Below, in pieces: positions 40,538 to 63,746 of a DNA stretch of 64,000 bases. The DNA comes from Herpetosiphon giganteus (GTDB lineage: Bacteria; Chloroflexota; Chloroflexia; Chloroflexales; Herpetosiphonaceae), in NCBI RefSeq assembly GCF_016907925.1, contig NZ_JAFBCZ010000028.1, positions 1-64,000 on the forward strand. The letters run 5' to 3'. Position 1 is the first letter of the stretch. Each line of letters opens with the position of its first letter. A model generated the notes under the pieces. That model saw only the letters and a program-made list of their open reading frames with translations. It was not told the origin of the DNA and ran no database searches. A program made the translations under genes and the position numbers.

Positions 40538-43105
40538 TCACTTCACCAGTGGCAACCACACCCGCTGCGGCGCAGGCGCAACCCGCAGCACCGTAGCGGG
40601 ATTGCCCAAGAGCAGCGTCGTGCGCAGGGCATCCGTGCAACACTGGCCTGTGAGCGCCAGTTCCAGCAGTCCGGCCTCGGTCACCTGCCCCAACGTTGGC
40701 CGTGCGGTGGTCATCGCCGCCGCCACCAGCCCATGCTGGAGGTGATCGTGGCCATGAGCGACCCCCAAACCACTTGATCCCCATGTGGCCAGCGCACCGC
40801 CGTCAGGATGCAGCACCAGCGCCTCATCAAGCGTCGTCCCGCGTGGACTGGGCTGGTGAAAGGCACTGGTCAGGCAGGTCAAGGCCAGCAACAACGGCAA
40901 CCGTTCGCCATTGCGCAGATCCGCAACCGCATTCAGATCGAGCAACCCACGCGGTTCGACAAGCGGATCGGTCACGGCCCACTGGTAGGCGTGGCTATGG
41001 CCGGTGTACTGCATGATCGTCGCGCCTGTGTTCCAGATTGCCAGGACCTGTTCACGGACGACCTGCGCATCAGCCACGTACCATTCGGGATCAGTGCTTG
41101 TTGCCTGCGGGTCGTAATAGGCCCGGTGCAAGGTCATCGTCAGGGGATAGACGGCCTCACTCTGCGCCGCCAGCTGCGGAAAATCAAGTGCTCCCTCGGC
41201 GTTATCCGCCACACTCCCGACTGTGCTTTGCCACACGCCCCATGGCGCTGCCGCATAGCGCTGCTGTTTGGCGATCAACACAGGGATCTCGTCCACGGTT
41301 TTGACGGGCCAGCGACCCACGGGCAGATCCGGCAGTAGGTCGGCAAGCGGATCAGCACCGTCCAGTTGGCCATAACAGGATTCACAAGCGGTTTCCCCGA
41401 GCCATAAATCGACCTCAGCGAGATAGGGCGGGATCAGCGGTGGCTGGCCATAGCCCAACACATCACGCGGGTCTGCCGCGCCGTCGCCAACGAGGAGCAC
41501 GCTCGTCGGTGGGGTCGGCCACGTCGCCGCTGCATGCTGGAGGAAGGATCGCAGCGCATCCGGCGACACCTGGCCAAACGCCCACGCGGCATCGAGATCT
41601 TCCCGCGCCACGAGCACCGTGGTCGGGGTGCGCAGCGGGTCGAGGGCTGGCAGGAAGGCGCGTGGGGCGATAATCACATCGGTTCCAGCGGTGGACAGAA
41701 CGACGGGGGTATGGCGCTGAACGGTTGGCGTGGGCAGGGGTGCGTGGCCAACGAGCAGATACCGGCGACTCACCAGGCTATCGGCCAGCACGGGCGTAGG
41801 GCCAGCAGGCAAAATGACGATCTGCGGCTGCTCCGGTGCGGTCACATCATAGAGCGTGCGCAGCAGAGGCGCAGCGGGTAGGGTATAGCGGGCAGGTATT
41901 GGGCCACTTCCAAACGCCTCGGTTGGCGACGTGGTGAGGTGCATGGGCCGGGTCACGGTCACGGTTTCGAGCAACACACTGGCTGCGCCGCTGGCCGGAG
42001 CAGCCAGCATCACCGTGAGGGCAGCAGTATTGGTCACCACGACCGACGTTTGCCATGCCGCAGTCGCAGGTACGGTGATCGGCACGCTATTGACCAGCAG
42101 CGGCACGGGCAGACTGGTAGCGGTGGCTCCGCTGAGGGTTACGGTCATCACGCCGCTGGCCAGCGGCAGGGTGGGCGTGAGCAGCATGGTGGTTGCATCG
42201 GCAGTGCCACCCGCGATGCTGCTCAAGCGGCGACTGAAGGTATGCCAGCCGCGCATCCCCGCATGGCGACTCTCAATCAGCTGCGGGTCGTCCCATTCAT
42301 TCGTCATCCAGATGGTATCGGTCAACGGGGCGGTGCTCGCTAATGCTAAGCGCGAGGCCATCGGCGGTGAGGGCGTGGCCGCTGCGGTCGTCAGCCAGAG
42401 GGTCGAAGCACGGTTCCAGCGATCACCAACCGCATTGACATACAAGCGTACCTCGTCATGGGCAGCGACCACGCCATCGCCAATCCCACGCCAATCGAGC
42501 GGGATCACCACCCCGTGATGTTGTACCTGCACGGTCGCCGGATTGAGGGTTGTGAGGTCAATCCCCGCTGCGGCCAACATCGCCCCCGTTACCCGTTGCA
42601 TGCCCGGTTCGGTCACGGTCAGCGTCCACGTGTGATCGGCAAACGCGAGTGGATTGGTTGGCGGTACCGGATCGCCAAAGGGCATGCGCGGCACGCCTTG
42701 GAGATCGGCAGGCGATTCTATTAGGACTGCATTCTCCAACACGGCGTGCAGCTGCGTCACCTGCTGGATCTGGCCGCGCTGCTGGATGATCGGCTGGACC
42801 AGGTAGACCCACACACCATACCCGCGATAGCTGCCATTGCGCAGGAGAGTTACCGGAGCGGTTGGCAGCTCGGCACGCAACGCCGCATCGCGGTGCGGCA
42901 GTGCGGTCGTTTCCCGCGTGAGCCTGAGGGTTGGCGCGGCAGCGTTCAGGCTACGTATAGCCATCGTCGTCGGTTGGGATGGCACGCCCGCGATCACCAC
43001 CGTCGTGCCAACCGCATGAATGCTGAAGGGTGTGACGGTGGCCAGCGCAGCACGCGGTACGGCCATGAGGATGATCAGGATGATGAGATATTTAGAGACC
43101 CGCAT
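40538..43105 (-). CDS. secreted C25 (gingipain-type) cysteine peptidase
   Basis: 855 residues. Signal peptide (1-22); an N-terminal beta-rich region (to about 380); then a peptidase C25 domain with VLLVGDGAADPRDVLGYG, the catalytic His in QYTGHSHAY (about 701) and the catalytic Cys in LALTCLTSAF (about 743). A short Ig-like end closes with RVWLPLVK, similar to the tail of the propeller protein at 26830. It overlaps the coupling-ATPase gene by 14 bases, so it belongs to the conjugation operon. It might process pilus or surface proteins of donor or recipient. Confidence 0.85.
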   Translation of the reverse strand: MRVSKYLIILIILMAVPRAALATVTPFSIHAVGTTVVIAGVPSQPTTMAIRSLNAAAPTLRLTRETTALPHRDAALRAELPTAPVTLLRNGSYRGYGVWVYLVQPIIQQRGQIQQVTQLHAVLENAVLIESPADLQGVPRMPFGDPVPPTNPLAFADHTWTLTVTEPGMQRVTGAMLAAAGIDLTTLNPATVQVQHHGVVIPLDWRGIGDGVVAAHDEVRLYVNAVGDRWNRASTLWLTTAAATPSPPMASRLALASTAPLTDTIWMTNEWDDPQLIESRHAGMRGWHTFSRRLSSIAGGTADATTMLLTPTLPLASGVMTVTLSGATATSLPVPLLVNSVPITVPATAAWQTSVVVTNTAALTVMLAAPASGAASVLLETVTVTRPMHLTTSPTEAFGSGPIPARYTLPAAPLLRTLYDVTAPEQPQIVILPAGPTPVLADSLVSRRYLLVGHAPLPTPTVQRHTPVVLSTAGTDVIIAPRAFLPALDPLRTPTTVLVAREDLDAAWAFGQVSPDALRSFLQHAAATWPTPPTSVLLVGDGAADPRDVLGYGQPPLIPPYLAEVDLWLGETACESCYGQLDGADPLADLLPDLPVGRWPVKTVDEIPVLIAKQQRYAAAPWGVWQSTVGSVADNAEGALDFPQLAAQSEAVYPLTMTLHRAYYDPQATSTDPEWYVADAQVVREQVLAIWNTGATIMQYTGHSHAYQWAVTDPLVEPRGLLDLNAVADLRNGERLPLLLALTCLTSAFHQPSPRGTTLDEALVLHPDGGALATWGSSGLGVAHGHDHLQHGLVAAAMTTARPTLGQVTEAGLLELALTGQCCTDALRTTLLLGNPATVLRVAPAPQRVWLPLVK

Positions 43106-46067
43106 CAGGATTCTCCGCTAGTAGTTTGATTAAACTGGTGGCCGTCGCTTCGGCCTGCATCACCGTGGCTACGCCCACTTTGCGCGGATTGACCACGACC
43201 GCCGGAGTCGCCACAGAACCGCCTGCGGGATTCGCCTCATAGGTCGCTTCTGGCGCGCCACCCCGTCCGCGTTTGCCCTTGGCAGGCGGCTCGTCGTCGA
43301 CCGCATCACGCGGAATGCTGAGGGTCAAGCGGGTCAAGGCGGCTAAGGCGATATCACGCGGGGTCGCCGCTTTCGCATGGCTCAAGGCCAGCACGCGCGC
43401 GGCACGGGGCAAGGAACAGGTCGGGGCCAGCAGCTGCGCATGGCGATCAGCGCGATCCGCCTGCATCCGGTCCAGGATCGCGTCCCAGAGTGCGGGTGGC
43501 GCATCGCGTAGTAAGCGCAACCGTTCCGCGCGGCCAAACTGGGCCAAGGCGCGCAGCCGTTCGTCGAGGGCATCGCGTGGCGGTGGGGCGAGCGTCGTCA
43601 TGGCGCGGGGTGCGCCACCCTGCGGCAGCGCAGGCCAGAGCGGCAGCGGCGTGATCGTGCAGATCGGTTGGCGAAAGCCATTAATGGAGATTGCCGCATA
43701 GCCTTCTTCACGCAAGGGAATCCCGGCCCAGTCCTGCATGGTCAGCCGCGCATCGGGATATTGGCGTTGCCAGACGGCGGCATCGGGGCCAAAGGCCGAG
43801 AGGATCAGACGGGTTTGGACAATCTCCAGCGTGGTGGCCAACATCTCGGCAGGTAGTTGACTCGTGCCTTGGTGCATCAAGACCAACCCAATCCCAAACG
43901 AGCGCAGCCGTTCCAGAATCTTCTGGTAATTGGCTGGATCGCCCCGTCGCATGGCCTCCTGAAATTCATCGACGAGCAAGACCCACGGCTCACGCTCCTC
44001 TTCCGGCGTATCCAAGCGACTAAACGCCGCTGCCAGCACGAGGTTAATCAGCACATTGGCCAGAATCCCGCCTGCGGTCGCGCCAATCAATTCAACGGGC
44101 AGCTTGGCCAACACAATCTTGCGTTGATCCATGACCTGCCGGAAGGGAATGGTCGTGCGCGTTTGGTTGCAGGTGATGCGCACGGTGCGATTAATCAGGA
44201 ATTGGCTCAAGCGGCGCTGCAAGGCGGTCATCGAGGACTTTTGGGTGTCACTCAATTTCGGAAACTGATAGGTCCAGAACAACACTAAGTCGGGATCAGT
44301 CACGCGCTCCAGCACCGTGGCGCGGTAGGCACTGCTGGAAAAGAGCAGGTACAAGTGGGCAATCGTCGGCGTTGGCTCGCCTTCCATCAAGGTCAAGGCC
44401 CCATAGCGCAAGGCTTCCTGCATCCCCGCCGAATCGCCCCAGTGGCTGTTGGTGCTGGCCACGAGGGCTTCGAGCAACTCAACCAAAAAGTCGGGTTCGG
44501 TATCTTTATTTAAATAGGTCGGGTCGAGCAGGTTCAGCCCAAGGCAGTGATCGGGGTCGAGTGGATCGAACACAATCACATCGTCGAGTCGATCATCGGG
44601 AATCATGGTCAACAGGTCATTGACGAGATCCCCCTTAAAGTCGATCACCCCAAAGCCTGCTCCAATCCGCAACAATTCGCCCAGCTGCACCTTGGCGGCG
44701 TGGCTCTTGCCTGCCCCGGTCGAGGCCGTAATTTGCTGATGAAAGGTGTAGCTTTTGAGCGGGAATCCCAGATAGACCTGCCGCCCATCGGCGGCCACGC
44801 CACCCGTGAGGCGCACCATCCGATCCTTTAAGGGTGTTGCGTCCGTAAAAGCAGGCGGTTCAGCACCCACTGTGCTGATCATCAAGGCTGGACTGGGAGG
44901 GGCAAAGCGGTTATTGCGCCAGATGGCCACGGTTAAGTGTCGTCCTGTGGGCAAGTGCCACAGCGCTGTGACTTCGGGCAGGCTCAGCACGGGCAGGGTT
45001 GGCGTTGGCAGCAGCGGCGGCAGCGGCATGGACAGCCAGCGCATAGCGTGCCGATCGCGCATCGCAGGGGTGATCGTTGTCTGGATACGGCCATGAGTCC
45101 AAGCTTGGCGTAGGCGGTCGTGCTGCGCGGTGTAGCTGTCGAGCGCGCCCACCAGAATTTGGTGCTGGGCGGTGGCAATCGCGGCAGTCTCGGCCAGCAC
45201 CACCGTGCGCAGGGTGACTGTCACAGCGGGACTTTGCAGTTTGGCCAGCATGGCGGTAGCGGTTTCTTTGCTGGCACTGGACTGGTGGTCTTTGGCGCTC
45301 AGCCCGAGCAGATCGGCCATGGCGCGCCCCTGCTGCTGCCAGCGTTCCGGTACAGAGCCAAGGGTCAACGAGACCCCAATTGCCGTTACGCCGTGCTGGG
45401 GTCGCAGGCCACCGATCAGCGCATCAAGCGGGTCGCCCACCATGGCATCGGCGCGGCGCAATGGATAGATCGCGGGCTGCGTCAGCGTGTGCTGTGTCCA
45501 GACCAATGCGGGGGTGGTGGTTGCGACCGGATCAGTCCGTGCCAGCAGATCACCACCGGGCACAAAGCCTTGCACCGCACTAAAGACGGGCGCATACAGG
45601 TCAGGATGGGAAAGCCACAAACTCCATGCAATTCCTTCCGTGATGTACCACAGTTCAAGTGCAATTCGCCGATCGGCAGAGGCATGGGCCACAATGGCCT
45701 GCAAAACGCGCACCAATTCGCCTGCGGTCGCCGCGTCACGCTGGCCGAGCTGCGCCGCCGTGCTACTATGCGGATCAGTGGTCATGGGTTTGGGAATCCG
45801 TAACAGATACCATTGTCCCTCAACGGCTGGTCGCCGCCGCAACCGGAGCCATGCGACCAACGTCGCGAGCACCCACAGCCCATAGCCGAGCAAAAGCCAG
45901 CCACTGATCTGGTGTACCCGTGTGACCAGCGTGGCCAAGGGCGCAAGGCGCGGGCTGGTGAGGTGACCGAGCAGCCATGGGCAGAACAGCCGCAGCACCC
46001 CGATCAACACGACCCCGATTCCTGCCAGCGTGCGGCCATAGACCGCGAGGATTAAGCGTCCATGCAT
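43092..46067 (-). CDS. VirD4/TraG-like type IV coupling ATPase
   Basis: 991 residues. Two N-terminal membrane helices (about 5-25 and 47-70), then a variable region. The motor follows: Walker A in STGAGKS (about 448-455), FKGDLVNDLL, and Walker B in VLLVDEFQEAM (about 695-705), then an SFGIGLVLMHQ sensor strand. A Lys/Gly-rich C-terminus carries KGKRGRGG. Such proteins bring DNA to the type IV channel and pump it. The order in the operon, between VirB-like genes and the C25 peptidase, supports that role. The start overlaps the upstream gene by 16 bases. Confidence 0.8.
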   Translation of the reverse strand: MHGRLILAVYGRTLAGIGVVLIGVLRLFCPWLLGHLTSPRLAPLATLVTRVHQISGWLLLGYGLWVLATLVAWLRLRRRPAVEGQWYLLRIPKPMTTDPHSSTAAQLGQRDAATAGELVRVLQAIVAHASADRRIALELWYITEGIAWSLWLSHPDLYAPVFSAVQGFVPGGDLLARTDPVATTTPALVWTQHTLTQPAIYPLRRADAMVGDPLDALIGGLRPQHGVTAIGVSLTLGSVPERWQQQGRAMADLLGLSAKDHQSSASKETATAMLAKLQSPAVTVTLRTVVLAETAAIATAQHQILVGALDSYTAQHDRLRQAWTHGRIQTTITPAMRDRHAMRWLSMPLPPLLPTPTLPVLSLPEVTALWHLPTGRHLTVAIWRNNRFAPPSPALMISTVGAEPPAFTDATPLKDRMVRLTGGVAADGRQVYLGFPLKSYTFHQQITASTGAGKSHAAKVQLGELLRIGAGFGVIDFKGDLVNDLLTMIPDDRLDDVIVFDPLDPDHCLGLNLLDPTYLNKDTEPDFLVELLEALVASTNSHWGDSAGMQEALRYGALTLMEGEPTPTIAHLYLLFSSSAYRATVLERVTDPDLVLFWTYQFPKLSDTQKSSMTALQRRLSQFLINRTVRITCNQTRTTIPFRQVMDQRKIVLAKLPVELIGATAGGILANVLINLVLAAAFSRLDTPEEEREPWVLLVDEFQEAMRRGDPANYQKILERLRSFGIGLVLMHQGTSQLPAEMLATTLEIVQTRLILSAFGPDAAVWQRQYPDARLTMQDWAGIPLREEGYAAISINGFRQPICTITPLPLWPALPQGGAPRAMTTLAPPPRDALDERLRALAQFGRAERLRLLRDAPPALWDAILDRMQADRADRHAQLLAPTCSLPRAARVLALSHAKAATPRDIALAALTRLTLSIPRDAVDDEPPAKGKRGRGGAPEATYEANPAGGSVATPAVVVNPRKVGVATVMQAEATATSLIKLLAENPDAGL

Positions 46068-47992
46068 ATGAGTTCCTCCGCCAGCACCGCCTCAGTGCGC
46101 TCATCATCAGCATCAATCCCGACCAGTGCCCAAACCTCGGCCTCCATGACCTCCCGTTTGAGCAGCAGCCCATGGCGCGAGTGCGTGCCTAAAACGCTGG
46201 CCAACCGCTCGGTGGCCAACGCGACGAGTCGCTCAGCCAGTCCACGATCCACGCCTAACACGGTTGCAGCCTGTTTCGTCGAGACCCCATTGCGGCGGTC
46301 GGCCAGCAGCGCTTCAATTAGTGCGTGCAGCTGGTCATCGCTGAGCACGGCATCGTGGGAAACCTGTGCGACGGGTGGCAGCGACCGCGCGATGAGTGGG
46401 TGCTCAACGGGTGCGGTGACGCGTGCGGTGCTGACTGGTTCTCCTGTTCCCGCTGCGGTCGAGGGCAAGGCCATCACGGGCTGAAAGAGATCGGTCGGAT
46501 CACACTGCCAAAAGACATGCGACGGTGGCGCTTCTGGCGCAGCCATGCCAGGAGCAGCGTCCCATGGCGCAGCCACATGGACACACACCTCGGCATGGGC
46601 GAGCAGCAAACCATGCATGGTGACGAGCATCCATGGATCAAGCCCATGCGCCTTGAGCACGGTTGTGGTTGGAATTACCCCACCACCGATATAGCCATGC
46701 CATGCGACGCGCGGAGCCAGCTGATCGCCACCTTGCAGCGTGGCTTCCGCCCACGGCAGGTCGCTCACTGTGAGGAGTGGGCGCGGACTGACTGCCTGCC
46801 ACGACGGGAGTGCCATGGCGATAATCCGCTGGATAAGCGCTGCCTGCTCGGCATCATCCGGCAGGACGACCACGACCACCCCACCGCGCTGGAGCAGCAG
46901 CGGCAGATCATCGCCGGGAGTCGCAAACACACTCAGCCAGTCGAGCGTGCGCCAGCGCCGCAACCGTACCGCCCAGCGCTGGGCCGCCATGCGCTGATCA
47001 ATCGCCGCCCGATTCGGCGCGGCAATGACCTGTCCAGCCAGCGCAATGAGATCGCCGAGGCTGGGGTGCGCGCGGCTGCGCCACTGGGCGAGCAGGGTGG
47101 GAATCGTCTGCCACAGGGAATCGTGCGGTTGTAAATCCGCCATCTGGCCCAGCAGGGTGGTCATGGCCGTGTCGTCGAGCCAGGCGGCCACATCCAGCGT
47201 CGTGGTGACCGCAGGCTGACGACCATCGACCACCCGCAGTCGCTCCCCTAGCGGTTCGAGCATCGGCACGAGGGTTGCGGCATGCGCTGGTGTAACGAGT
47301 GCCACGACGCTGGCATGGGCACGCAGGCTCTGGTCGACCAGCTGCGCGACAGTGGCCCAGCGCTGCGCAGCCGGGCCACGCAGATCGAGTGGCGTGCCAA
47401 GGGGCAGCGCGACATCCGCGCTGAACTGCCATGCTACGCCCGCGACCGCAGGCAGCTGCATTGGCAACGACGGCAGATCGGGCAGCAGCGCGGCCTCGTC
47501 GAGCGGCAAATCACCCACCCACGGCTGTGGCCGCAGCAGCCCGAGCAACCAGACGAACGCAAGGGACGAACCCCAGCGCTGCGGGGTCGCATGAACGGCC
47601 TGCACCACGCCGTTGCGCAGCGCCCAGCCCTGCATCGTCTGATCATCCGCACCACCCCGCCGCCAGCGCAGGATCGGCATGGTCAGGGTCACGGGACGCA
47701 GCGTAGCCAATGGGATGCGCTCGCGCAGCGTCGTCATGAGCAGAGTGTGGGTGGCAGGGGTGGTCTGGAGCAGCAGTTGCCGCCCGTGCGCGGTGGGCAC
47801 GAGCCACAGCCATGCCGCGCCCATCCCCACGCCATCGACGAGTGCATCCCGCAGCGTGGACGCATCCACCGTAGCGGGAATCCGTACCCGCCACGCCGAC
47901 CATTGCGCCTGCTCCGTCGTGATCGTCGCCAGCACCCGCATGAGGAGCCAGCCCACGCCACCGACCAGAAGGAAGACCATTAGGAGGCTCAT
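46052..47992 (-). CDS. large membrane-linked protein without P-loop, C-terminal HTH
   Basis: 646 residues. One N-terminal helix (about 3-22). The body has the strand-helix rhythm of an ATPase of the neighbouring VirB4/VirD4 type (VVALVTPAH, VVVVVLPDD) but no Walker A or B is visible. Residues about 540-600 (LHALIEALLADRRNGVSTKQ, quoted in part) look like a winged helix or HTH. It may be a catalytically dead partner of the two ATPases encoded on either side. Its start overlaps the previous gene by four bases. Confidence 0.5.
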   Translation of the reverse strand: MSLLMVFLLVGGVGWLLMRVLATITTEQAQWSAWRVRIPATVDASTLRDALVDGVGMGAAWLWLVPTAHGRQLLLQTTPATHTLLMTTLRERIPLATLRPVTLTMPILRWRRGGADDQTMQGWALRNGVVQAVHATPQRWGSSLAFVWLLGLLRPQPWVGDLPLDEAALLPDLPSLPMQLPAVAGVAWQFSADVALPLGTPLDLRGPAAQRWATVAQLVDQSLRAHASVVALVTPAHAATLVPMLEPLGERLRVVDGRQPAVTTTLDVAAWLDDTAMTTLLGQMADLQPHDSLWQTIPTLLAQWRSRAHPSLGDLIALAGQVIAAPNRAAIDQRMAAQRWAVRLRRWRTLDWLSVFATPGDDLPLLLQRGGVVVVVLPDDAEQAALIQRIIAMALPSWQAVSPRPLLTVSDLPWAEATLQGGDQLAPRVAWHGYIGGGVIPTTTVLKAHGLDPWMLVTMHGLLLAHAEVCVHVAAPWDAAPGMAAPEAPPSHVFWQCDPTDLFQPVMALPSTAAGTGEPVSTARVTAPVEHPLIARSLPPVAQVSHDAVLSDDQLHALIEALLADRRNGVSTKQAATVLGVDRGLAERLVALATERLASVLGTHSRHGLLLKREVMEAEVWALVGIDADDERTEAVLAEELICMDA

Positions 47993-48228
47993 ACCACCTC
48001 CTCGCCATCTTCAATGACCAGCACGGTGGTGCTTGCCGTGGTCGGCGCAGCACTCGCAACGGGCGGCATAGCGGGAATTGCCGTGGTCGGCGCGCCACCA
48101 TCACCTGTCCGTGGTGGCAACGCGGCGCGTTGGGCAGCGAGAAACGCCCCCCATGCTGCCGCGCGTTGGCGGGCTGCCACGGTCGGATCTGCCGTTGCGG
48201 GGCTAAACCAGCGATCAAATACGCCCAT
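47989..48228 (-). CDS. small T4SS-operon protein, 79 residues
   Basis: Short protein, basic and helical at first (VAARQRAAAWGAFLAAQR) and then Ala/Pro/Thr-rich and acidic at the end. There is no membrane segment. The start overlaps the end of the VirB4-like gene by 14 bases, and the stop overlaps the next start by four. It may be an adaptor or chaperone for the ATPases; nothing in the sequence proves it. Confidence 0.5.
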   Translation of the reverse strand: MGVFDRWFSPATADPTVAARQRAAAWGAFLAAQRAALPPRTGDGGAPTTAIPAMPPVASAAPTTASTTVLVIEDGEEVV

Positions 48229-50694: not shown

Positions 50695-50763
50695 GAGAGA
50701 CCTCCTTGAAACAAAGGACGCTGCGCAGCGGTCGTGCTGCACAGCGTTCCATCCACCACAACC

Positions 50764-53902: not shown

Positions 53903-53915
53903 CAAAACCTCCTTT

Positions 53916-53935: not shown

Positions 53936-53997
53936 ATTGTAGGGATTGACAGACCCGATCGTGCAGTCGTCATGTCGTTGCTTTGCGCAGCAGCGCC

Positions 53998-54094: not shown

Positions 54095-54137
54095 GCACGG
54101 CGCACAGTCCACGCACGGACGCGACACCATGCTCGTC

Positions 54138-54168: not shown

Positions 54169-54192
54169 TCTGCATTCATTTGGAGGTGTTCG

Positions 54193-54516: not shown

Positions 54517-54656
54517 ACGCGGAACAACCACCGACCACGCCACCGATCATGGAGGTTCCGCCGTGGGACGATCCCGTGCCACCGCGTGTTCAGCTCGATC
54601 GGCGCGCCGTCATGGCCCTCGTCATTGCCGAGGAAGGAGACAGGACTGATGAATGA
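54510..54656 (+). CDS. very small overlapping gene, 48 residues
   Basis: GTG start at 54510 with GGAGG five bases upstream, inside the end of the preceding gene; its stop overlaps the ATG of the VirB6-like gene. Pro/Glu-rich then helical (VMALVIAEEGD). The overlaps at both ends suggest a translated coupler. Too small for family assignment. Confidence 0.45.
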   Translation: MVNAEQPPTTPPIMEVPPWDDPVPPRVQLDRRAVMALVIAEEGDRTDE

Positions 54657-57345
54657 TCAGTTAATGGATGCGTCAAACAAGGGGTTGCTGCTTGACCTGA
54701 TGCAGTATTGGCTGGCCATGCCTGCGTGGTGGATCACGCGCATGCTGATCCTCATGCATGAGACCTGTGCGGTCGTGCTCAGCGTGGTCATGCGCGGAGC
54801 GTTTGCGACCCCGGAGGTGGGTTTGCCGGGTTGGGTGGAGCTGCTCACCGCAACCTTGATTGGCAATTGGTACAGTCGTGCCCTCGCCTTGGGCATGCTG
54901 GGCTTAGGCTTAACCTTGATGCTGATGGGCAGTGGCATGCGCATCAAGCTCGTGCAGCCGCGCGCGTTTGGGCGCTGGACGCTGGTCATGGTGCTCTTGG
55001 CCATGGGCGCGCCGAGTCTGTATGGGACGACGATTCAGCTGATCACGCAAGTTCCGGCGTTGGTGCTGCCATCGATTGTCGATCGGTTGCCCCCGATTCG
55101 CGCCGCGTGGATTACGGTCGCACAGGATGGCGATCCGGTTGCCCCCTTCGACCCCGCCAATCCGGCCTATGCCAGCCGCGCGGCGGTGCTGACCATTCCC
55201 CCAACCGCATCCAGTTGTGCCACCATGGTCACGAGTGGCCGCAGCTGCGATCACCCGATGTATGCGCCGTTAGATGCAGTCTTGGCGCTCTGGCGTACCG
55301 ACCGGGCAAGCCTCATCAGCGGCATTGATGGGATCACCCATGCCACGCCCGATGGCAGTACCACCGTCCAATTGGATGGCTTGCCACCGGATTTTGCGGC
55401 CCTGTTTTATCCTGATGCGACCCAACCGTGGTACGGCGGCGCGTTTACCAGCGACCCCAGTGGGATGCAGAAGCGTCGGGAAGCCTTGAATACGGCCAGT
55501 ATTGGCACGCTGCACGCGGTGGCAGGCATCCTTGCCGCGCTAGCGACCCTGATGCCTACCTTGGCCCAGGCGCTGATGACCGTCTGTGGAGCCTTGTTGT
55601 TTCTCTTGGGGATTGTCGTGGCCCCGATCGGCATGTTTGGGAACCAACGCCACTGGGTTGCGGTGGTCTATCGCAGCTTTTTTACCATTAGCGGCTGGCA
55701 AACGGTGTTGGTGGTCGGGACAAATCTCGCGACCTTTCTGTTGTTTGGCACGCCAGACGAGCCAGGCATTGCAATGGCCTATCCGACCATGCTCGTCGTG
55801 CTGCCGCTGTTTGTCTGGGTGCAATGGCGGGTGTTGCGCTTTGCCATGCGCCTCAGTTGGCAGGGGTTTGCCGCCTTGCGCACCGTGGTGAGTCGCGAGC
55901 CGTTGCAACGGTTGCTCGGCGATCAGCCCGCTGCGGCGACCGAAGCCCGTGTGGCCGCAACCGGACACTATACCGCCACGAGCGATACCGCTGCCATGCA
56001 GCCCACGCTGGCCACCACTACCTTGGCCCGCGAGCCACAGCTGCATGCAGCAACCACAGCGTTGGCATCGACGCAGGGCACGCCAACCACGCCAAGCACG
56101 CACACCAGCACCAGGTCGGCGCTGCCGTCACTGATCAATCCCCGTGGGCTGGCATTGCGCATGCAGCAGACGGCCCAACGCACCGTGCAGCGCGTGCAGC
56201 AGCTTGATCACCAGATTGAGGTCACGGAAGCGCATATGCTGCGCAGCAGCGAAGTGCGCACGGATACTCAGCTTGACCGCGCGGATCAGGCCATCACCAC
56301 GATGATTGGGGGCAAGGCAATTGCCGCAGGGGTGACCTATGCCCATGAAAACGAGGTCACGCCAGAATGGCTGTTTGCGCCCGCGTCTGACCCTGCCAGC
56401 GCTCGACCACCGCGTGCGCCACAATCCCGCCCGGCAAGCCCCACCCACAGCGGTCATGGTGCAGGCCGCACCACGGTAGCGGGACGGCCAATTGAAACGC
56501 CAGCGGTGTCGCCCACCCAAGAACTGCCCACGCGCGCCGTGCCGCGATCAGCCCGCCCACCAGCCGCCGATCTGCCACCAACGCAGCCGCTGGCAGCCGT
56601 CTCAGCGACGACACGACAGGAAGCGGGTGCTGCGGCATCGCCAGTGGTGGCCGGTGATCAGGAAGGAAGAACCACGGCCAGCGCCGCGCATGCGGATGCG
56701 TCGGTTATAGCGCATAGTGCGTCCATGGCTCCAGCTGCCACCGCAGCACCCGCTCCGCCGCCAAGCGCCGCGCGTGGATCAGCCGTGGTATTGCCCACAC
56801 CGCCAACGCAAGAATTGCATGCTGCGTCACACCAGACGCATACGATGACACCCATGGCTTCCCGACCAGAACGCGTACCGACGGCGAGCACAGCGGCAAC
56901 CCCAGGCATGCAGGCTCCTGCGCCCATGGCACGCCACCAATCGCCAACCATCCAGCCCCATGCGGCAACGGATGGATCACCCGTGGCGACCAGCGCTCCC
57001 CCAACAGACGCTGATCCAACGCCCCATGCGGGGAGCGCCCAGCCGCAGAAACCATCCATAGTGAACGAGGCGCACGCGCAGGCAACGCCAGCAGCGCTGA
57101 CGGAACCAGCCCAATCAACCGCCGTGGATGCGCCCGCACCATCCTCGCCGCCTGCGCCAGCGAGCACGCGACCCGTGCGGTCACGCTCGCGCGTGGGAAC
57201 ACCGCCGCGCAGCGTTGCATCGGGTGTATCAGGAATTGACATAACGGAAAATGCGCCACGTGATCAGCACGCGCAACCGCAGCCACCAGCAGCGGCCAGT
57301 GCATCGTCCGCAGCCATTCCCGTTCGCAAAGGACGGCGTGTATGA
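54649..57345 (+). CDS. VirB6/TrbL-like multi-TM channel protein
   Basis: 898 residues. Hydrophobic segments near 20-45, 52-70, 80-100, 108-130, 285-310, 315-335, 350-372 and 382-400 form the membrane part. A long outer loop (130-280) has two Cys. The C-terminal 450 residues are an Ala/Pro/Thr-rich cytoplasmic or exposed tail with repeated PTPPTQEL / SPTQELPT pieces. VirB6/TrbL proteins form the inner-membrane pore of the channel; the long hydrophilic tail is seen in Gram-positive and Chloroflexota versions. The start at 54649 has AAGGAG upstream. First large gene of the rightward T4SS operon. Confidence 0.72.
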   Translation: MNDQLMDASNKGLLLDLMQYWLAMPAWWITRMLILMHETCAVVLSVVMRGAFATPEVGLPGWVELLTATLIGNWYSRALALGMLGLGLTLMLMGSGMRIKLVQPRAFGRWTLVMVLLAMGAPSLYGTTIQLITQVPALVLPSIVDRLPPIRAAWITVAQDGDPVAPFDPANPAYASRAAVLTIPPTASSCATMVTSGRSCDHPMYAPLDAVLALWRTDRASLISGIDGITHATPDGSTTVQLDGLPPDFAALFYPDATQPWYGGAFTSDPSGMQKRREALNTASIGTLHAVAGILAALATLMPTLAQALMTVCGALLFLLGIVVAPIGMFGNQRHWVAVVYRSFFTISGWQTVLVVGTNLATFLLFGTPDEPGIAMAYPTMLVVLPLFVWVQWRVLRFAMRLSWQGFAALRTVVSREPLQRLLGDQPAAATEARVAATGHYTATSDTAAMQPTLATTTLAREPQLHAATTALASTQGTPTTPSTHTSTRSALPSLINPRGLALRMQQTAQRTVQRVQQLDHQIEVTEAHMLRSSEVRTDTQLDRADQAITTMIGGKAIAAGVTYAHENEVTPEWLFAPASDPASARPPRAPQSRPASPTHSGHGAGRTTVAGRPIETPAVSPTQELPTRAVPRSARPPAADLPPTQPLAAVSATTRQEAGAAASPVVAGDQEGRTTASAAHADASVIAHSASMAPAATAAPAPPPSAARGSAVVLPTPPTQELHAASHQTHTMTPMASRPERVPTASTAATPGMQAPAPMARHQSPTIQPHAATDGSPVATSAPPTDADPTPHAGSAQPQKPSIVNEAHAQATPAALTEPAQSTAVDAPAPSSPPAPASTRPVRSRSRVGTPPRSVASGVSGIDITENAPRDQHAQPQPPAAASASSAAIPVRKGRRV

Positions 57346-57392
57346 CGCAACGATCAGCCATTTGGTTGGTGCTGGGAGCGGCATTGCGACGA

Positions 57393-57447
57393 TTTCACTA
57401 CCATTTCACTACCGTTTCAGTACGGTTTCAGTACCATTTCACTACCG
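57393..57447. repeat. five tandem 11-bp iterons
   Basis: TTTCACTACCA, TTTCACTACCG, TTTCAGTACGG, TTTCAGTACCA, TTTCACTACCG, one after another without gaps. The 11-base spacing keeps all sites on one DNA face. They lie between the VirB6-like gene and the replication-relaxation gene at 57582, so they may bind that protein or form part of an origin. Confidence 0.85.
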
Positions 57448-57550
57448 TCATGGGGCATGAAGCTGCTCCCAGAGAGGCCGCGACGGCCATTTGGTGGCCT
57501 CGGCACTCTTTAAGCAGCCGCGAAGCCACCATATGCAATCCAGCGATTGA

Positions 57551-57569
57551 CCAGCCACAATCAGGCTGG
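57551..57569 (+). promoter_or_regulatory. pre-RBS stem-loop
   Basis: CCAGCC (57551-57556) pairs with GGCTGG (57564-57569) around ACAATCA, one base before the GAAAGGA site of the gene at 57582. Confidence 0.5.
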
Positions 57570-57581
57570 AGAAAGGAATCG

Positions 57582-58520
57582 ATGAAGAGTTCAACCGGCT
57601 ATGCTCCGAACGCGATGGAAACCCAATGCTTGGTGCTTTTAGCCCGCCTTGGTCGTCTCCTGCCGCGTCACCTGCATCTTGCGTGGCCAACCACCACCTT
57701 GCGCAATGCCTATATTTACCTGAATCGCTTAAGCGCAGCGGGATTAGTCGCCTATATCGAACACTTTGAAGCCCCACCGGCGAATCGCCGAACGCGCAAA
57801 AATCAGCTGTGGAAACGCCATGGTCGCATCTATAGCCTCACGCCCTTAGGCTGGGATTATCTCAAAGCATCCTTTCCCCACCTTGAGGAAACGAACGAAC
57901 GGCTTGCGCCGACCTATTTCAATCCGCGCCATCAAGCCGAGCATCAAATCGAATACGCCGATCTCGTCACCAGTATCCTGCGGGATCTCGACACCATTCC
58001 GGGGATGGTCGGCATGAGTAGCTACATTGAGATGGATCTCAGCGAGCAGGCTCGACCCCGTGCCGATGGGATTATCGTCCTGCGCCGCTGGAAAGATTCC
58101 ACGCGACACCTTGACGAGCGCTCGTCCTGTTATCCGTGGCTGCTGGTCGCCCGCCAAGAAGAACAAATCGACGAGCTGTTTGCGATTGAGATCGATCGCG
58201 GTACGGAAGAAGCCAGCATTATTACGGGCAAGGCCCGCTCCTATGGCGAACTCTATGATGCTGGCTCATGGAAAGAGCGCTTTCAGTGGCCATTGATCGC
58301 CTTTGCCGTCCCGACCGAACGCCGCCAGCAGGTGATCTTCGATGCCTGGGATCGTGGCTGGCCCGGTGGCCCGATTCGCTGCACCACCTTCGATGCCATT
58401 CATGCCCATGGCGCATTGGCTCCGATTTGGACCCATCAACAACGCATCCAGGGCGAACGCATCCTGCATGCGAACGTTCCCTTGCTGCGCTCAAGCTGGG
58501 CTGAGGCGGTGATCGCATGA
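57582..58520 (+). CDS. replication-relaxation family protein
   Basis: 312 residues. An N-terminal winged-helix (about 10-85; LVLLARLGRLLPRHL, LRNAYIYLNRLSAAGLV) and a following nuclease-like alpha/beta domain (about 100-250, with YPWLLVARQEEQIDELFAIEID) match the replication-relaxation family found in conjugative plasmids and integrative elements of Firmicutes, actinobacteria and Chloroflexota. These bind DNA and are thought to help initiation of replication or transfer. The start at 57582 follows GAAAGG; the iterons at 57393-57447 are a likely target. Overlaps the next gene by four bases. Confidence 0.72.
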   Translation: MKSSTGYAPNAMETQCLVLLARLGRLLPRHLHLAWPTTTLRNAYIYLNRLSAAGLVAYIEHFEAPPANRRTRKNQLWKRHGRIYSLTPLGWDYLKASFPHLEETNERLAPTYFNPRHQAEHQIEYADLVTSILRDLDTIPGMVGMSSYIEMDLSEQARPRADGIIVLRRWKDSTRHLDERSSCYPWLLVARQEEQIDELFAIEIDRGTEEASIITGKARSYGELYDAGSWKERFQWPLIAFAVPTERRQQVIFDAWDRGWPGGPIRCTTFDAIHAHGALAPIWTHQQRIQGERILHANVPLLRSSWAEAVIA

Positions 58521-59275
58521 CCTCCTGCCGTGTGCCACACGATCCTATTCTCGTCGCCAGCCTGCATGCAGGTCTCACGGCCTTGGGGCCACTCGACCGT
58601 ACTGCAATTGGCCGGATCTGGTTTCCCACCAAGGGCGATCAGGCTATCCGGCGGATCTTGCGGCCACTCGTTCAGCAGCACCTGTTGCACGCCACGGTGA
58701 TCAGCAAAGGACGGCAACGGATTGCGATGCGCTACCACGCCACGGCGGTGGGTGCGATCACTGATCCGATTCTGCCGCCGATTCGCATGGCCGCTGCCCT
58801 GCTCGAAACCGCGCAGCGCCTGCCCGATTTGGTCAGCGTTCAGACGACGGTGTTGGATACCTATCGCGGTGGTGGCCGCATTGTGGGCCTGCGCACGCGC
58901 AGCGCACCGCATCGTCGTCCGGCATCACCGGTGCCGATCCTACGCTGGAATACCGCCGCTCCCCGCGAGCGCGAGCAAGATACGTGGTACTTGCTGGTTC
59001 CCGACCACGAACAGGTCTCACGCGATCAGCATGCCATGCGGGCACGCTGGTATCGCGAACTGGCCACCACGCGGGGCTTTCCCGTGCCGATTCCCCTGAT
59101 TCTGACCACGCCGCAGCGCATGGCACTCGTGGAATATGCCTGGACTCCCCATTGGCCGCAGATCGTGCTTGGTGATGCTCCGCCCGATGGCCCATGGACG
59201 GACGTGGCGTGGCAGCCCATCATCGATGGCAAGGCCATCCCGCCGCCCGTCCCGATCACGCAGCTCGCTCGCTAA
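58517..59275 (+). CDS. hypothetical protein coupled to the relaxation gene
   Basis: 252 residues. Starts in the four-base overlap ATGA with the previous gene. The N-terminal 90 residues (LDRTAIGRIWFPTKGDQAIR, quoted in part) look like a second winged helix, similar in outline to its neighbour. The C-terminal part is strand-rich with many Pro and no motif recognised. It may form a complex with the replication-relaxation protein at the iterons. Confidence 0.55.
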   Translation: MTSCRVPHDPILVASLHAGLTALGPLDRTAIGRIWFPTKGDQAIRRILRPLVQQHLLHATVISKGRQRIAMRYHATAVGAITDPILPPIRMAAALLETAQRLPDLVSVQTTVLDTYRGGGRIVGLRTRSAPHRRPASPVPILRWNTAAPREREQDTWYLLVPDHEQVSRDQHAMRARWYRELATTRGFPVPIPLILTTPQRMALVEYAWTPHWPQIVLGDAPPDGPWTDVAWQPIIDGKAIPPPVPITQLAR

Positions 59276-59333
59276 CGTCGGTGTTTTTCATATGAAGGGT
59301 GTTTTCATGACCCCGTGTTGTTAGGAGTTTCGC

Positions 59334-60608
59334 ATGACCGCTCACATGCTTCCACCGCGCCGTCGGCGCACCACGTTTGCTCGCCTTGGAGGTCGTATGG
59401 TCGAGAATGATGGATTCAAGGAAACCGCAGCGCCGGAGGAGGAAATAAATCAGGCCGATACGGCTTCTAGCGCCGTGTCTGAACCCGTCACTGCTGCGCC
59501 AATCGTCGACACACCGCCCATCACGGTCGTGATTCCTCGGGCGGTCACGGCAATTGTCGAGCCAATCCAACCGCCCGTGGCCACACCTGAAGCCGCCGAG
59601 CGCAGCGTGGACGCAGCGCCGCAGCCCGTGGTGGTCAATCCTGCCGCGCCGCGTCAGCCCGATCGCCATCGGGCAGAATCGATCACGATGCGACCGACCG
59701 AACCCAGCACGCCACCCCCAACGGGACTGGCTGCGCCCATCGTTCAGCCCGAACGCCCGCGCTATGCTGGCCCGCGCCTACCCCGCGCCCGCTCGACGTT
59801 CGAGGCCTTTGCGCCCCACGCCGACCGCTGGGGAACCAACCATATAACCGTGGTGGGACGCGCCACCAATGATCCGGTGACGGTCGTGCGGCCCACGGCA
59901 GGGGGCGCGTTCAATCGCTACACCGTGGCCATTTATGATCAGGTCCAGAGCGATGATACCGTCCTGCCCCAGATCTCGACCGTGGTCATGCTGGTGCCGC
60001 GTGATGCCGCCAGTCTCAATGCCGCGTTTCAGCCGGGGCGCATGCTGACCGTCAGCGGGCGCTTGGTGGTGCGCACCCACTTCGATGGCCGCTATGCCCG
60101 CACCAGTGAGTTTGGCGGCATGTTCCAGACCCAGCCCTATGTCTTGGTCGGCAGTGCAGCGCTTACGCGCGGTGATGCCAGTCGCCAGCAATATTTAATT
60201 GGCCAGTTGTCGGGCACGGTGACGGGGATCATTACCCAGCCCACCACACGCTACCGCTTTGACCGCCAGCAGGAGCTGGTGGTGCTCATGCGCGTGACCG
60301 AAGCCTTTGATCGGCCACCACCCGCCCGTGGCCAGCGCATCGAGCACCAGATTGTGCCGTTGCTCGTGCCCATCACGGTCGCCGAGGCACTGCCCACGCT
60401 CGCTACCGGCATGCGCATCCAGACCGAGGTCGAGCTGCATGTCAAACACCGGATTCTGGGCAATCACCACTTTGCGCTCACCGGCGTGCCCGATGAGGCC
60501 AAGACGCAGCTGCGCCACCGCGAGCGCTGGACACTCGTCGCCACATGGATGGAGGAACAGGCACTATGCCCACCCGTTTCCGACTCGTCAGCATCGGACT
60601 TGTCATAA
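59334..60608 (+). CDS. OB-fold SSB-like protein with long N-terminal tail
   Basis: 424 residues. A disordered Pro/Ala/Val-rich region (1-155) precedes a domain starting ITVVGRATNDPVTVV (about 162) with FNRYTVAIYDQV and VSGRLVVRTHFDGRYAR. This is the layout of single-strand DNA-binding proteins (SSB/PriB OB-fold). A second similar beta-domain seems to follow (about 285-400). It would coat single-stranded DNA during transfer or plasmid replication. The usual acidic SSB tail is absent. The end overlaps the NlpC/P60 gene by 43 bases. Confidence 0.6.
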   Translation: MTAHMLPPRRRRTTFARLGGRMVENDGFKETAAPEEEINQADTASSAVSEPVTAAPIVDTPPITVVIPRAVTAIVEPIQPPVATPEAAERSVDAAPQPVVVNPAAPRQPDRHRAESITMRPTEPSTPPPTGLAAPIVQPERPRYAGPRLPRARSTFEAFAPHADRWGTNHITVVGRATNDPVTVVRPTAGGAFNRYTVAIYDQVQSDDTVLPQISTVVMLVPRDAASLNAAFQPGRMLTVSGRLVVRTHFDGRYARTSEFGGMFQTQPYVLVGSAALTRGDASRQQYLIGQLSGTVTGIITQPTTRYRFDRQQELVVLMRVTEAFDRPPPARGQRIEHQIVPLLVPITVAEALPTLATGMRIQTEVELHVKHRILGNHHFALTGVPDEAKTQLRHRERWTLVATWMEEQALCPPVSDSSASDLS

Positions 60609-61735
60609 TTATTTTACTCAGCAGTTGTGGAGGTCGCCCGCTTCCGGCGACCTCCCCCAATACCATCACGGGCAAGCCCCAGTGGTGGTGTCCCACGCCC
60701 ATCGTGGCCGGTGATCCGACCGCGATTGCCGCCATGCCCACGGTCACGCCCTACTATCATCGTGACCAGTTTATGCTGGGCCAAGATATCGTCAGCAACG
60801 GCATGCGCGTGACGGTCCATGGCATCACCGACGGCGCAACGGCTCCCGATGCGATTGGCGGCGGGCAGCTGCGCTGGGTCGATCTCGAAGTGACCAGCGC
60901 CGTGTCACTGCCGCTTGATCTGGCCGCCCAAGTGGTGATCCGCGAGGTTGAGCAGGATGCGGGGCAAGCGGCCCGTGGCTGGTGGACAACCGACACCGCG
61001 ACGCTGGCCACGACCGCAATCACGTTGCCGACGCGGCTGGAGGCGGGCATGCCATGGCGCGGCCAGATTCCGATTCGCACGCCGCTGGGCAAGCCCGTGT
61101 TTGTGCTGGTGTATCGCACGCCGAGCGATGCCCTGCTGCGTGCGCAGCCGACCGACGGCGTGATTGTGGTGCAAAACCGCCGTGACCCAACCTGTGCAGG
61201 GAATATCGCCCGCGTCCCGTTCCCGACCATACCCGCAGGTGGTGGACCAGGCGCGCCCATTAACGGCACGCCCGTCGCCGTGCCACCCGGCACGAATCCG
61301 CTCGTGGCTTACGCCGTGAGCAAGCTAGCGTGGCCCTATGTCTGGGGTGGCGAAAGCGAGGCCGAAGGCGGCTTTGACTGTTCGGGTCTGATGTACGCCG
61401 CCTATGGCAGCGTCGGGTTGACCGTGCCGCGCACCTCGCAGGCGATGTGGCAGAGCGCGCAGATCCAGCGGATTGACATCAGCGAGCTGCGTCCGGGCGA
61501 TCTGGTCTTTTTCCACACCGATGGCAGCCGCTTCAGCAGCCCACCAACCCATGTCGGCATGTATATCGGGGATTTCAATGGCAATGGCACACCGGATCTC
61601 GTGCATGCTTTGAGTCCCGCATGGGGCATTCGGATTGAGGACAATTGGCTGACCAAGCCGTGGCTGGTTGCGCCATGGCCCGATGGCACGCCGCGCCTGT
61701 GGGGTGCTGGCTATTTCGTGAATCCCTATCGCTAG
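60566..61735 (+). CDS. NlpC/P60 lipoprotein (VirB1-like cell-wall hydrolase)
   Basis: 389 residues. Lipobox ending in Cys near residue 21 (LLSSC), a beta-rich linker domain (30-210), then an NlpC/P60 domain with Cys in FDCSG (about 271), His in HVGMYIG (about 329) and a second His. This enzyme cuts peptide bonds in peptidoglycan. In type IV systems such hydrolases open the wall for the channel. The ATG at 60566 follows GGAGG within the SSB-like gene. Confidence 0.88.
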   Translation: MPTRFRLVSIGLVIIILLSSCGGRPLPATSPNTITGKPQWWCPTPIVAGDPTAIAAMPTVTPYYHRDQFMLGQDIVSNGMRVTVHGITDGATAPDAIGGGQLRWVDLEVTSAVSLPLDLAAQVVIREVEQDAGQAARGWWTTDTATLATTAITLPTRLEAGMPWRGQIPIRTPLGKPVFVLVYRTPSDALLRAQPTDGVIVVQNRRDPTCAGNIARVPFPTIPAGGGPGAPINGTPVAVPPGTNPLVAYAVSKLAWPYVWGGESEAEGGFDCSGLMYAAYGSVGLTVPRTSQAMWQSAQIQRIDISELRPGDLVFFHTDGSRFSSPPTHVGMYIGDFNGNGTPDLVHALSPAWGIRIEDNWLTKPWLVAPWPDGTPRLWGAGYFVNPYR

Positions 61736-61755
61736 TTCATTAAAAGGAGGATTCG

Positions 61756-62469
61756 ATGCGTTGGTTCATTCTTGTGCTCATACTGCTTATGCATCCATAC
61801 AGCACGTTCGCCCAAACGACCCCGCTGACCGTGCGGGTGCAGGATATGGCCACCATGCAGCCCATGGCGGGCGTGGTGGTGACCTTTACGCCGATTGGTG
61901 GCCAACCAATCACGGCAATCAGCGACGCGCAGGGTGTGACCGTTGTCACACTACCCGCTGATCGCGTGATCGTCACGCTGGCCGCTGCCGATGGCAGCAC
62001 AATTCCGTGGGAAGCGCCGTATGCAGGCGGCTATCCCATCCAGTCCATTGTGGGATTGACGACCTTGACCGTGCAGATCGACCCGGTGACAGGCATCGCC
62101 CATCACGCGCTGGAGCAAGATTGGGCGGGTGGCCCAACCCAAGCCGATGACCCGACCGCAGCCTTAGCACCACCCGCCACCGGAACCGCCATCGCCGCCC
62201 AAACTGCCACCGCTGCGGTCGCGCAGCTGCCAACCAGTGAGGCGCTCCTGCCAACATCCATGCCAACGACCCTGCCAGTCGCACCACCCACAAGCGTGCC
62301 CAGCGCCGTTCCCACCAGCAGCCAGCCCGTGCTGGCGATCCTGCCGAGTAGTCCCCCCACCCCACCAGCAGCGCGCCCATGGACAACGTGGCTGCCCCTC
62401 GTGGCCATTGTGGGGGTTATGCTGTTGGGTCTGTGGTCGTGGCGCGGACGCATGGGGGTGCTGCGATGA
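61756..62469 (+). CDS. secreted membrane-tailed protein
   Basis: 237 residues. Signal peptide (1-20), a beta-sandwich of carboxypeptidase-regulatory or CnaB-like type (about 22-110, with PMAGVVVTFTPIGGQPITAI), an Ala/Pro/Thr stalk (125-205), and a C-terminal membrane helix (213-230) followed by WRGRMGVLR. It is anchored in the membrane and extends through the wall. The start follows AAAGGAGG. It overlaps the next gene by four bases. A structural part of the mating apparatus is inferred. Confidence 0.65.
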   Translation: MRWFILVLILLMHPYSTFAQTTPLTVRVQDMATMQPMAGVVVTFTPIGGQPITAISDAQGVTVVTLPADRVIVTLAAADGSTIPWEAPYAGGYPIQSIVGLTTLTVQIDPVTGIAHHALEQDWAGGPTQADDPTAALAPPATGTAIAAQTATAAVAQLPTSEALLPTSMPTTLPVAPPTSVPSAVPTSSQPVLAILPSSPPTPPAARPWTTWLPLVAIVGVMLLGLWSWRGRMGVLR

Positions 62470-63746
62470 TGTGGCGGAGCCTGTTCCTGCTTATCCTGCT
62501 CGTGTGTTTTTTGACACCAGCAGTGACGACAGCCCAAACCCCAACCGTCAACCCATCCACTGCCGCATGGGCATTTGATACCCCACGCACGCTGGGCCGG
62601 GACATCGGCGTGATCCGCGGATTGGCCACCGCGCTCGATGAACAGGGCTATGCCCATACCAGCTACCTGCGGGCCAGCGAATTTATGGCCAATGCCAGTC
62701 ATAGTGCGCTGATTGTGCAGGGCGTGACCCGCGCAGGCGATCGCTATGAACGACGATTGTGGCAGGGCGAACCCAGCGCTGGCCCAACGGCGATCACGGC
62801 GCGCCAAGGACGGATTATTGTCGCGGCAACCCTCGATAGCACGGTGCGCCTGTGGGAAAGCCGCGATGGTGGGGCAACGTGGCGTGAGCTGGCCAGTCCG
62901 GTGCGCGCCATGTCGGCCCAGCCAGCCATCCTGCCCAATGGCCGCGCCGTGCTGGCACTGCTCACCCGCAGTGGCATGCAGTTTCATCTGACCATCGCCA
63001 GCGAAACCAGCGCAGGCAGTGGGTCGTGGCAGGCTGCCAATCCATTGCCTCCTAGCGCCAGTGCGGTGGTGGCGGTATGGCAGCGGGACAACGTGCGGAG
63101 CGATCAGGGAGGGTTGCCGCAGCTCGTCATTGCTCAAGGCATGGCCGGTGGGGTACAACTTGCCACAACGCAAGACGGAGCAACGTGGCAACCACAGACC
63201 ATTGCCAGTGCTACGCCGCATGCGCTGGCCTTGAGTGCAGTAGGGGATCGCATGGTTATGATGCATGAAGAATATGGGGCACGGGTGCTGTGGCTCGCCA
63301 GTTCGACGCTCGACGAGGATTGGCAGGTCACGCGGCTCGCCACGCCGTCCTCGGTGATTGTCGAAGCCAATCCGCTGCTGCACGACCCACAAACCAACAG
63401 CGTGCTGCTGCTGACAACCTGCCGCTTTCCCGACCGTCCCTTTGGCAGCCATCGGGCGCAGCTCTGCCTCAGTCGGGTCGCGCGGGACAAGCTGCACGTG
63501 GCCAGTGCGTGGGAAAGCCAGTGGGCTGAACCGTGGACACCGATTACGATGGCCCAACCCCATACGGCGCAGGCGGGAGCAGTCGTGGTGACGCACGGCA
63601 TGCAGGCGCATATGGCGTGGGTCGGGCAGTTCATCCCCAGTGACTTTCTGCATATTAACGCAACCCAAGCGGGGTTTGTGACCACGAGTGAGGCCATGGC
63701 CACGACGGTGCGGATTCCGACGCTCGCGCGGATGGATGCGCCGTGA
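62466..63746 (+). CDS. secreted sialidase-like propeller protein
   Basis: 426 residues. Signal peptide (1-23) and a repeated pattern of beta blades, with Asp-box-like turns SRDGGATWREL (about 120) and TTQDGATWQPQ (about 230) typical of BNR/sialidase propellers. The sialidase catalytic Arg triad is not evident, so it may be a binding protein. The start at 62466 overlaps the previous stop. It is the last clear gene of the rightward T4SS operon. Confidence 0.7.
   Translation: MMWRSLFLLILLVCFLTPAVTTAQTPTVNPSTAAWAFDTPRTLGRDIGVIRGLATALDEQGYAHTSYLRASEFMANASHSALIVQGVTRAGDRYERRLWQGEPSAGPTAITARQGRIIVAATLDSTVRLWESRDGGATWRELASPVRAMSAQPAILPNGRAVLALLTRSGMQFHLTIASETSAGSGSWQAANPLPPSASAVVAVWQRDNVRSDQGGLPQLVIAQGMAGGVQLATTQDGATWQPQTIASATPHALALSAVGDRMVMMHEEYGARVLWLASSTLDEDWQVTRLATPSSVIVEANPLLHDPQTNSVLLLTTCRFPDRPFGSHRAQLCLSRVARDKLHVASAWESQWAEPWTPITMAQPHTAQAGAVVVTHGMQAHMAWVGQFIPSDFLHINATQAGFVTTSEAMATTVRIPTLARMDAP

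Follow-up and report, generated by a model that had tools for sequence, protein, structure and literature searches.

How could a conjugation machine hand over DNA without a relaxase? This question is raised by a gene cluster of Herpetosiphon giganteus (Chloroflexota), located at 40,538-63,746 of the stretch of 64,000 nucleotides that we analysed (the window), which takes in the first 64,000 bases of a contig of 81,620 bp in a 6.16-Mb genome. The original prediction, made from the sequence, was a type IV secretion system (T4SS) encoded by two divergent operons on a Chloroflexota element, in which no relaxase could be seen. The two divergent operons were confirmed, one on the minus strand from 53,902 down to 40,538 and one on the plus strand from 54,193 to 63,746, in a conserved module that most likely belongs to a plasmid of the pHAU01 type. 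The call of a missing relaxase is most likely wrong. Families of the HUH type are absent, as had been claimed, but the gene at 57,582-58,520 encodes a protein of PF13814, the MOBC relaxase family; it was passed over because only His-triad and Tyr (HUH) motifs were considered. Overall, the region is likely to be what transfers a large conjugative plasmid related to pHAU01, with the PF13814 protein serving as a MOBC-type relaxase beside its cis site. Three features are central to this reading:

57,359-57,530, no strand assigned: candidate origin of transfer (oriT), with a box CATTTGGT at 57,359-57,366, about five 11-bp direct repeats at 57,389-57,448 and a core GGCCATTTGGTGGCCTCGGCACTCTTTAAGCAGCCGCGAAGCCACC at 57,485-57,530, which contains a second CATTTGGT
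57,582-58,520, plus strand: MOBC-like relaxase candidate (PF13814 Replic_Relax, 35.1 bits, cut-off 25.3)
58,517-59,275, plus strand: paralogue of this candidate, probably without nuclease activity (hhalign 93% over 227 columns, hidden Markov model E 0.002)

PF13814, named 'Replication-relaxation', corresponds to MOBC in CONJscan (PMC5357655). Relaxases of this class, among them TraX of pAD1 and MobC, have a restriction-endonuclease-like site and an N-terminal winged helix, and they bind at five direct repeats that lie away from nic (PMC12857230); the relaxase of pAM373 is related to TraX (PMC7117660). To see how far the window protein follows this pattern, conserved residues and a structure model were inspected. 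The residues H121, E203-x-D205, R206, T208, K217 and Y221 are kept in 23 PF13814 proteins from the same family and order. These proteins also keep a catalytic-type Asp, D162 in the window protein, with the caveat that in the pHAU02 subtype the MAFFT column pairs another Asp, the better counterpart being the Asp of a PDG/PDA motif. Enterococcal MOBC proteins show D152, E170-x-E172 and K188 for the D162, E203-x-D205 and K217 of the window protein.

The AlphaFold2 model of the 57,582 product (predicted local distance difference test, pLDDT, 79.7; predicted template modelling score 0.78) begins with a winged helix at residues 1-106, with a Z of about 11 to MarR-type proteins. This is followed by a helix at 117-136, strands at 142-152, 160-170 and 195-204, a helix at 211-227 and a strand at 238-243. 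D162 lies on the second strand, E203 and D205 are found where the third strand ends, and K217 is on the helix that follows. In the model, such an alpha-beta-beta-beta-alpha-beta order with the residues so placed would correspond to a PD-(D/E)XK arrangement. The predicted structure suggests a winged helix joined to a PD-(D/E)XK-type strand order.

An HUH-type relaxase was also considered for this product and rejected: its only H-x-H (HLH at 29-31) becomes HLR or HLA in orthologues. In the whole genome, relaxases of PF03389, PF03432, PF08751, PF01076 and PF02486 were absent, a search that covered MOBP/Q/V/F and MOBT and had MOBH and MOBM outside it; PF08751, PF01076 and PF02486 are likewise absent from H. 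aurantiacus. The original prediction had proposed the 57,582 or the 58,517 product as nickase. The former is the best relaxase candidate and, as judged from sequence and model, most likely a MOBC-type relaxase. The latter does not retain the nuclease motif in profile comparison with the PF13814 set and is confined to the subtype of the window module; it is likely a nuclease-dead partner or regulator rather than the nickase. A standard relaxase next door would have spoken against the original prediction, and this applies by half: the module itself encodes a member of a known relaxase family, although one of a non-HUH kind.

The cis site was then compared across the genus. Of 13 such regions, 11 have 11 as their best internal period, and in 8 the value lies above all 60 shuffles. 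Where both boxes are present they are 129 bp or 117-119 bp apart, distances that differ by one repeat unit. A consensus core, allowing up to three mismatches, gave 14 matches in six Herpetosiphon genomes and none with the reversed control, and downstream of every one of the 14 a PF13814 domain begins within 131-1,284 bp on the same strand. When 84,980 species were scanned, each represented by one genome, the exact core turned up in Herpetosiphon only. A comparable layout is seen in pAM373, with five or six 12-bp direct repeats upstream of its PF13814 gene.

Repeats and protein also appear to vary together. When the four distinct plasmid proteins are compared in blocks of 17 columns, divergence peaks around residues 36-53, the recognition helix, with a value of 0.69 against a mean of 0.18 and a maximum of 0.56 in 2,000 shuffles. 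Inside the recognition helix, 80% of positions differ between the PF13814 proteins of G094 and pHAU01, against 9% in the rest of the protein, and their repeat units differ; those of the window and G034 have an identical recognition helix and a common repeat unit. Similarly, the chromosomal copies have one helix and one type of repeat unit in common. From this we infer that the recognition helix and the repeat unit co-vary, as would be expected of a protein that reads those repeats. A second array of 11-bp period (CGCACAACCCC type) lies at 53,975-54,100 between the divergent operons; the period-11 arrays found at this place in pHAU01 and G070 are longer and differ in sequence. As a speculation, the array at 53,975-54,100 might be a site for the 58,517 product.

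Binding of this kind would also suit a replication or regulatory protein on iteron- or operator-like repeats, transfer using another nickase or none, and we regard this as rather improbable. The repeats do lie directly upstream of the protein's own gene, as operators and iterons would, and PF13814 proteins have been reported from phages. Set against it are the invariant nuclease-type residues and the genomic context of the family. A virD4-like gene adjoins the PF13814 gene in the T4SS clusters G094:C8, G253, G370, pHAU02, G000:C40 and G070:C62; in G094:C8 a single gene run ends with VirB4, a 46,052-like gene, VirD4, PF13814 and an SSB-like gene. Moreover, in two chromosomal elements another gene sits between the core and the PF13814 gene, and one element of this kind brings along an integrase, a Toprim primase and a DUF3987 protein of its own.

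Several observations weigh against a MOBC relaxase acting at an oriT here. PF13814 proteins have also been reported in phage genomes, and therefore membership of the family is by itself no proof of relaxase activity. In the hhalign comparison of the window family with enterococcal MOBC proteins (77%), most of what aligns is the winged helix. The nuclease fold was deduced from the order of the strands, structure matches being limited to residues 1-106; fold searches with the whole 57,582 product returned winged-helix proteins and no PD-(D/E)XK entry, because the winged-helix domain fills the list, and a sequence search of the PDB gave mostly winged-helix proteins and nothing significant. In the window, virD4 and the PF13814 gene are in separate operons. 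The window's own core is more than 3 bases off the consensus and thus outside the 14 matches, and the cis site could be an operator or iteron array instead. Finally, no overlap was found between the contig ends, so that the contig is not closed.

The same cassette is found beyond plasmids. On chromosomal contigs, at least eight PF13814 genes of the closest subgroup are accompanied by this cis site. L082 (G102:C1:760001-780000), the locus among them that was studied in most detail, encodes a phage-type tyrosine integrase, an actin-like protein, a Toprim primase and a DUF3987 protein; VirB4 was not found near its PF13814 gene. Judging by gene content, elements of this type could be islands mobilisable in trans. 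Other chromosomal elements, L073-L078 and L081, have the same PF13814 gene and core site, with ThiF-like proteins in L073 and L076. Taken jointly, these cassettes may be relaxase-oriT units in which helix and 11-bp repeats have co-diversified around a fixed core, so that each plasmid or island would have its own transfer address; the plasmid would carry an active and a nuclease-dead MOBC pair, and islands without a T4SS would ride the plasmids' machine. We put this forward tentatively, as a possibility somewhat short of even.

The T4SS around this site is a conserved unit. Homology to G070 spans 40,541 to 63,761 of the window and is bounded by the outer genes of both operons, and the 23-kb block can therefore be taken as one unit. 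Against pHAU01, 94% of 24 kb could be aligned at ~80% nucleotide identity, gene for gene, and the module recurs in three further Herpetosiphon genomes, whole or as a contig-limited part. Such gene-for-gene conservation in relatives places the module far beyond chance. Most of its proteins are 80-97% conserved across five genomes and the genes are intact. The remaining parts, each operon in gene order, are:

52,313-53,902, minus strand: Pro/Thr-rich secreted stalk protein (signal-like N terminus, composition; G094:C8 orthologue 30%)
51,051-52,316, minus strand: single-pass membrane protein with a large outer part (one membrane segment)
50,764-51,033, minus strand: VirB2-like small protein with two membrane segments (topology, position)
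50,299-50,742, minus strand, start maybe 50,694: VirB3-like small membrane protein (size, place before VirB4, membrane segment)
48,215-50,302, minus strand: VirB4-type ATPase, 695 amino acids (conju_CD1110 E 4.2e-19, VirB4_CagE E 4.7e-11, DUF87; Walker A GATGSGKS)
46,052-47,992, minus strand: membrane-anchored 646-amino-acid protein between VirB4 and VirD4 (one N-terminal membrane segment)
43,092-46,067, minus strand: VirD4-type coupling ATPase, 991 amino acids (PF02534, 28.8 bits, cut-off 20.1; Walker A ASTGAGKS, plus VLLVDEF)
40,538-43,105, minus strand: C25 (gingipain-type) peptidase, last gene of the left operon (PF01364 E 6.5e-70; signal-like N-terminal segment; motifs YTGHSH and ALTC)
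54,193-54,516, plus strand: small conserved protein of 107 amino acids, first gene of the right operon (kept on pHAU01 as Haur_5114 and in G070)
54,649-57,345, plus strand: VirB6-like polytopic protein with a long disordered tail (several membrane segments; G094:C8 orthologue 29%), followed by the oriT candidate, the PF13814 gene and the paralogue
59,334-60,608, plus strand: SSB-like (OB-fold) protein, weakly assigned (PF00436 20 bits, below the cut-off of 26)
60,566-61,735, plus strand: NlpC/P60 cell-wall hydrolase lipoprotein in a VirB1-like role (PF00877 E 1.4e-20; lipobox-like LLSSCGG; G094:C8 orthologue 44%)
61,756-62,469, plus strand: secreted stalk protein with a C-terminal membrane anchor (signal-like N terminus; membrane segment 210-228)
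62,466-63,746, plus strand: secreted beta-propeller-like (BNR/Asp-box) protein (BNR_2 match, also in the G094:C8 and pHAU02 counterparts)

A conjugative T4SS set is thus present, with VirB4, VirD4, NlpC/P60 and PF13814 identified by profile and the membrane subunits by topology and order. For VirB4, VirD4, the VirB1-like hydrolase, the C25 peptidase and the replication-relaxation protein, the profile matches bear out the original assignments. The names VirB2-, VirB3- and VirB6-like agree with size, predicted membrane segments and gene order and have no family-model match. The SSB-like assignment is below the profile cut-off, as listed, and gains from a related gene at the same place in relatives; SSB-like relatives also adjoin the PF13814 gene in G094:C8, G370 and G253. 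The product of 51,051-52,316, which has a divergent orthologue (28%) in G094:C8, is possibly VirB8-like or a stalk protein. The description of the 46,052-47,992 product as a P-loop-less ATPase homologue is unproven: it gave no family match and no Walker motif, its hhalign probability is 0.5% against VirD4 and 0.1% against VirB4 (shallow alignments), and its structure model is unusable (pLDDT 39.5). A dead VirD4 paralogue, tried as an identity for it, accordingly finds no support from profile comparison. In three divergent T4SS types of Herpetosiphon (62,466-63,746; L040:9709-11301; L033:20302-21900) a secreted BNR/Asp-box beta-propeller is encoded near the wall hydrolase, and it therefore seems to be a genuine component of the machinery.

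That no VirB7- or VirB9-like parts are present was borne out. Chloroflexota are usually viewed as monoderm, and if the cell is monoderm the lack of these outer-membrane core components is expected, because there would be no outer membrane. It is important to add that H. aurantiacus is listed as Gram-negative by stain in its genome paper (PMC3368417).

The secreted parts invite a different question, namely whether the main role of the T4SS is protein delivery or contact in predation rather than DNA transfer. Herpetosiphon is a predator, and the module encodes a secreted C25 peptidase (81-83% amino acid identity in four other Herpetosiphon modules), stalks and a beta-propeller. We nevertheless consider this very unlikely: the module is on a plasmid, the PF13814 protein, the SSB-like protein and the oriT-like site would be superfluous for protein delivery, and one of the six Herpetosiphon genomes searched has no VirB4 match.

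As to the carrier, window positions 9,856-22,364 are ~90% identical to parts of pHAU01 1-26,238 and represent a shared backbone. An FtsK/SpoIIIE-like gene at 15,666-17,099 encodes a protein that is 99% identical on pHAU01 and 44% on pHAU02. Because the T4SS module, the backbone and this gene match pHAU01, the contig is most likely part of a pHAU01-type plasmid, a view that rests on sequence comparison. The FtsK/SpoIIIE-like product may be a DNA translocase of a plasmid type that is distinct from VirD4. Its presence on the contig, pHAU01 and pHAU02 could also mean that the plasmid is transferred mainly in double-stranded form by this protein, as with TraB of Streptomyces, while the T4SS decays, but this has hardly any probability in our view, given the intact and conserved T4SS genes and the FtsK-like copies in all Herpetosiphon genomes searched, some of them chromosomal paralogues.

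We return to the MOBC-type relaxase and propose how transfer might proceed. The winged helix of the PF13814 protein would bind the 11-bp repeats at 57,389-57,448 and its PD-(D/E)XK-type domain would nick in or near the core at 57,485-57,530. VirD4 would then pass the strand to a channel of the VirB4/VirB6 type without an outer-membrane core, and the SSB-like protein would coat single-stranded DNA. The 58,517 product would probably be a nuclease-dead partner or regulator, and the C25 peptidase, the stalks and the beta-propeller might serve at the cell surface in contact or maturation.

Little work has been done on conjugation in Chloroflexota. In 2011, pHAU01 and pHAU02 were the sole plasmids known among seventeen sequenced Chloroflexi, and the H. 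aurantiacus genome paper that reported this is silent on conjugation or transfer (PMC3368417); published accounts of the genus cover plasmids and CRISPR, and not conjugation. A concrete relaxase candidate, a 170-bp oriT candidate and natural repeat variants make transfer in this phylum directly testable, and these candidates could aid genetic tools for Herpetosiphon. More generally, a verdict of 'no relaxase' can arise from searching for HUH motifs only.

Both flanks of the module carry other features. A CRISPR (clustered regularly interspaced short palindromic repeat) array adjoins it at 37,415-38,509, with ~15 repeats of GTTAGAACCAGCGCCCCGACGGCGAGGGGATTGAAAC and spacers of 35-39 bases; compared with the plasmid and island sequences used here, the spacers gave only 13-base chance matches. 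The right flank (L001, contig 63,858-81,620) contains FGE-sulfatase-like, TPR-rich, NB-ARC/TPR, PIN, XisH and SUKH-3 genes and has a G+C content of 39-57%, against 61-66% in the T4SS block.

Among known systems, the closest is pHAU01 of H. aurantiacus DSM 785 (CP000876, 138.8-162.6 kb), which has the same module and backbone and differs in its 11-bp repeat unit and recognition helix. MOB-suite typed both pHAU01 and pHAU02 as non-mobilizable. Within the genus, the T4SS of G094:C8 has a VirB4 that is 35-37% identical to that of the window. A second Herpetosiphon type (pHAU02, G000:C40, G070:C62) likewise has VirB4, a virD4-like gene beside PF13814, SSB, a wall hydrolase and a beta-propeller, whereas its VirB4 is ~25% identical and its PF13814 protein belongs to another subgroup, without a cis site of the window type. 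The nearest curated models are the Gram-positive types CD1110/CD1115, matched by VirB4 (E 4.2e-19) and weakly by VirD4 (E 0.0016), far from the cut-offs (68 of 325 bits and 17 of 250 bits), the other subunits being without a match; these are only hints on the type of mating-pair formation and do not establish FATA or FA. The enterococcal MOBC systems (TraX of pAD1, pAM373) share the winged helix, the D, E-x-D/E and K residues and an upstream repeat array. In pAM373, typed MOBC, the PF13814 protein scores lower (27.1 bits) and the gene order is VirD4, PF13814 relaxase, SSB. The window differs from them by very low sequence similarity, by 11-bp rather than 12-bp repeats, by the additional nuclease-dead paralogue and by other accessory proteins. 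Altogether, this is a known kind of conjugation module in which the MOBC-like relaxase is divergent, the oriT candidate is well defined and the surface parts are specific to the lineage.

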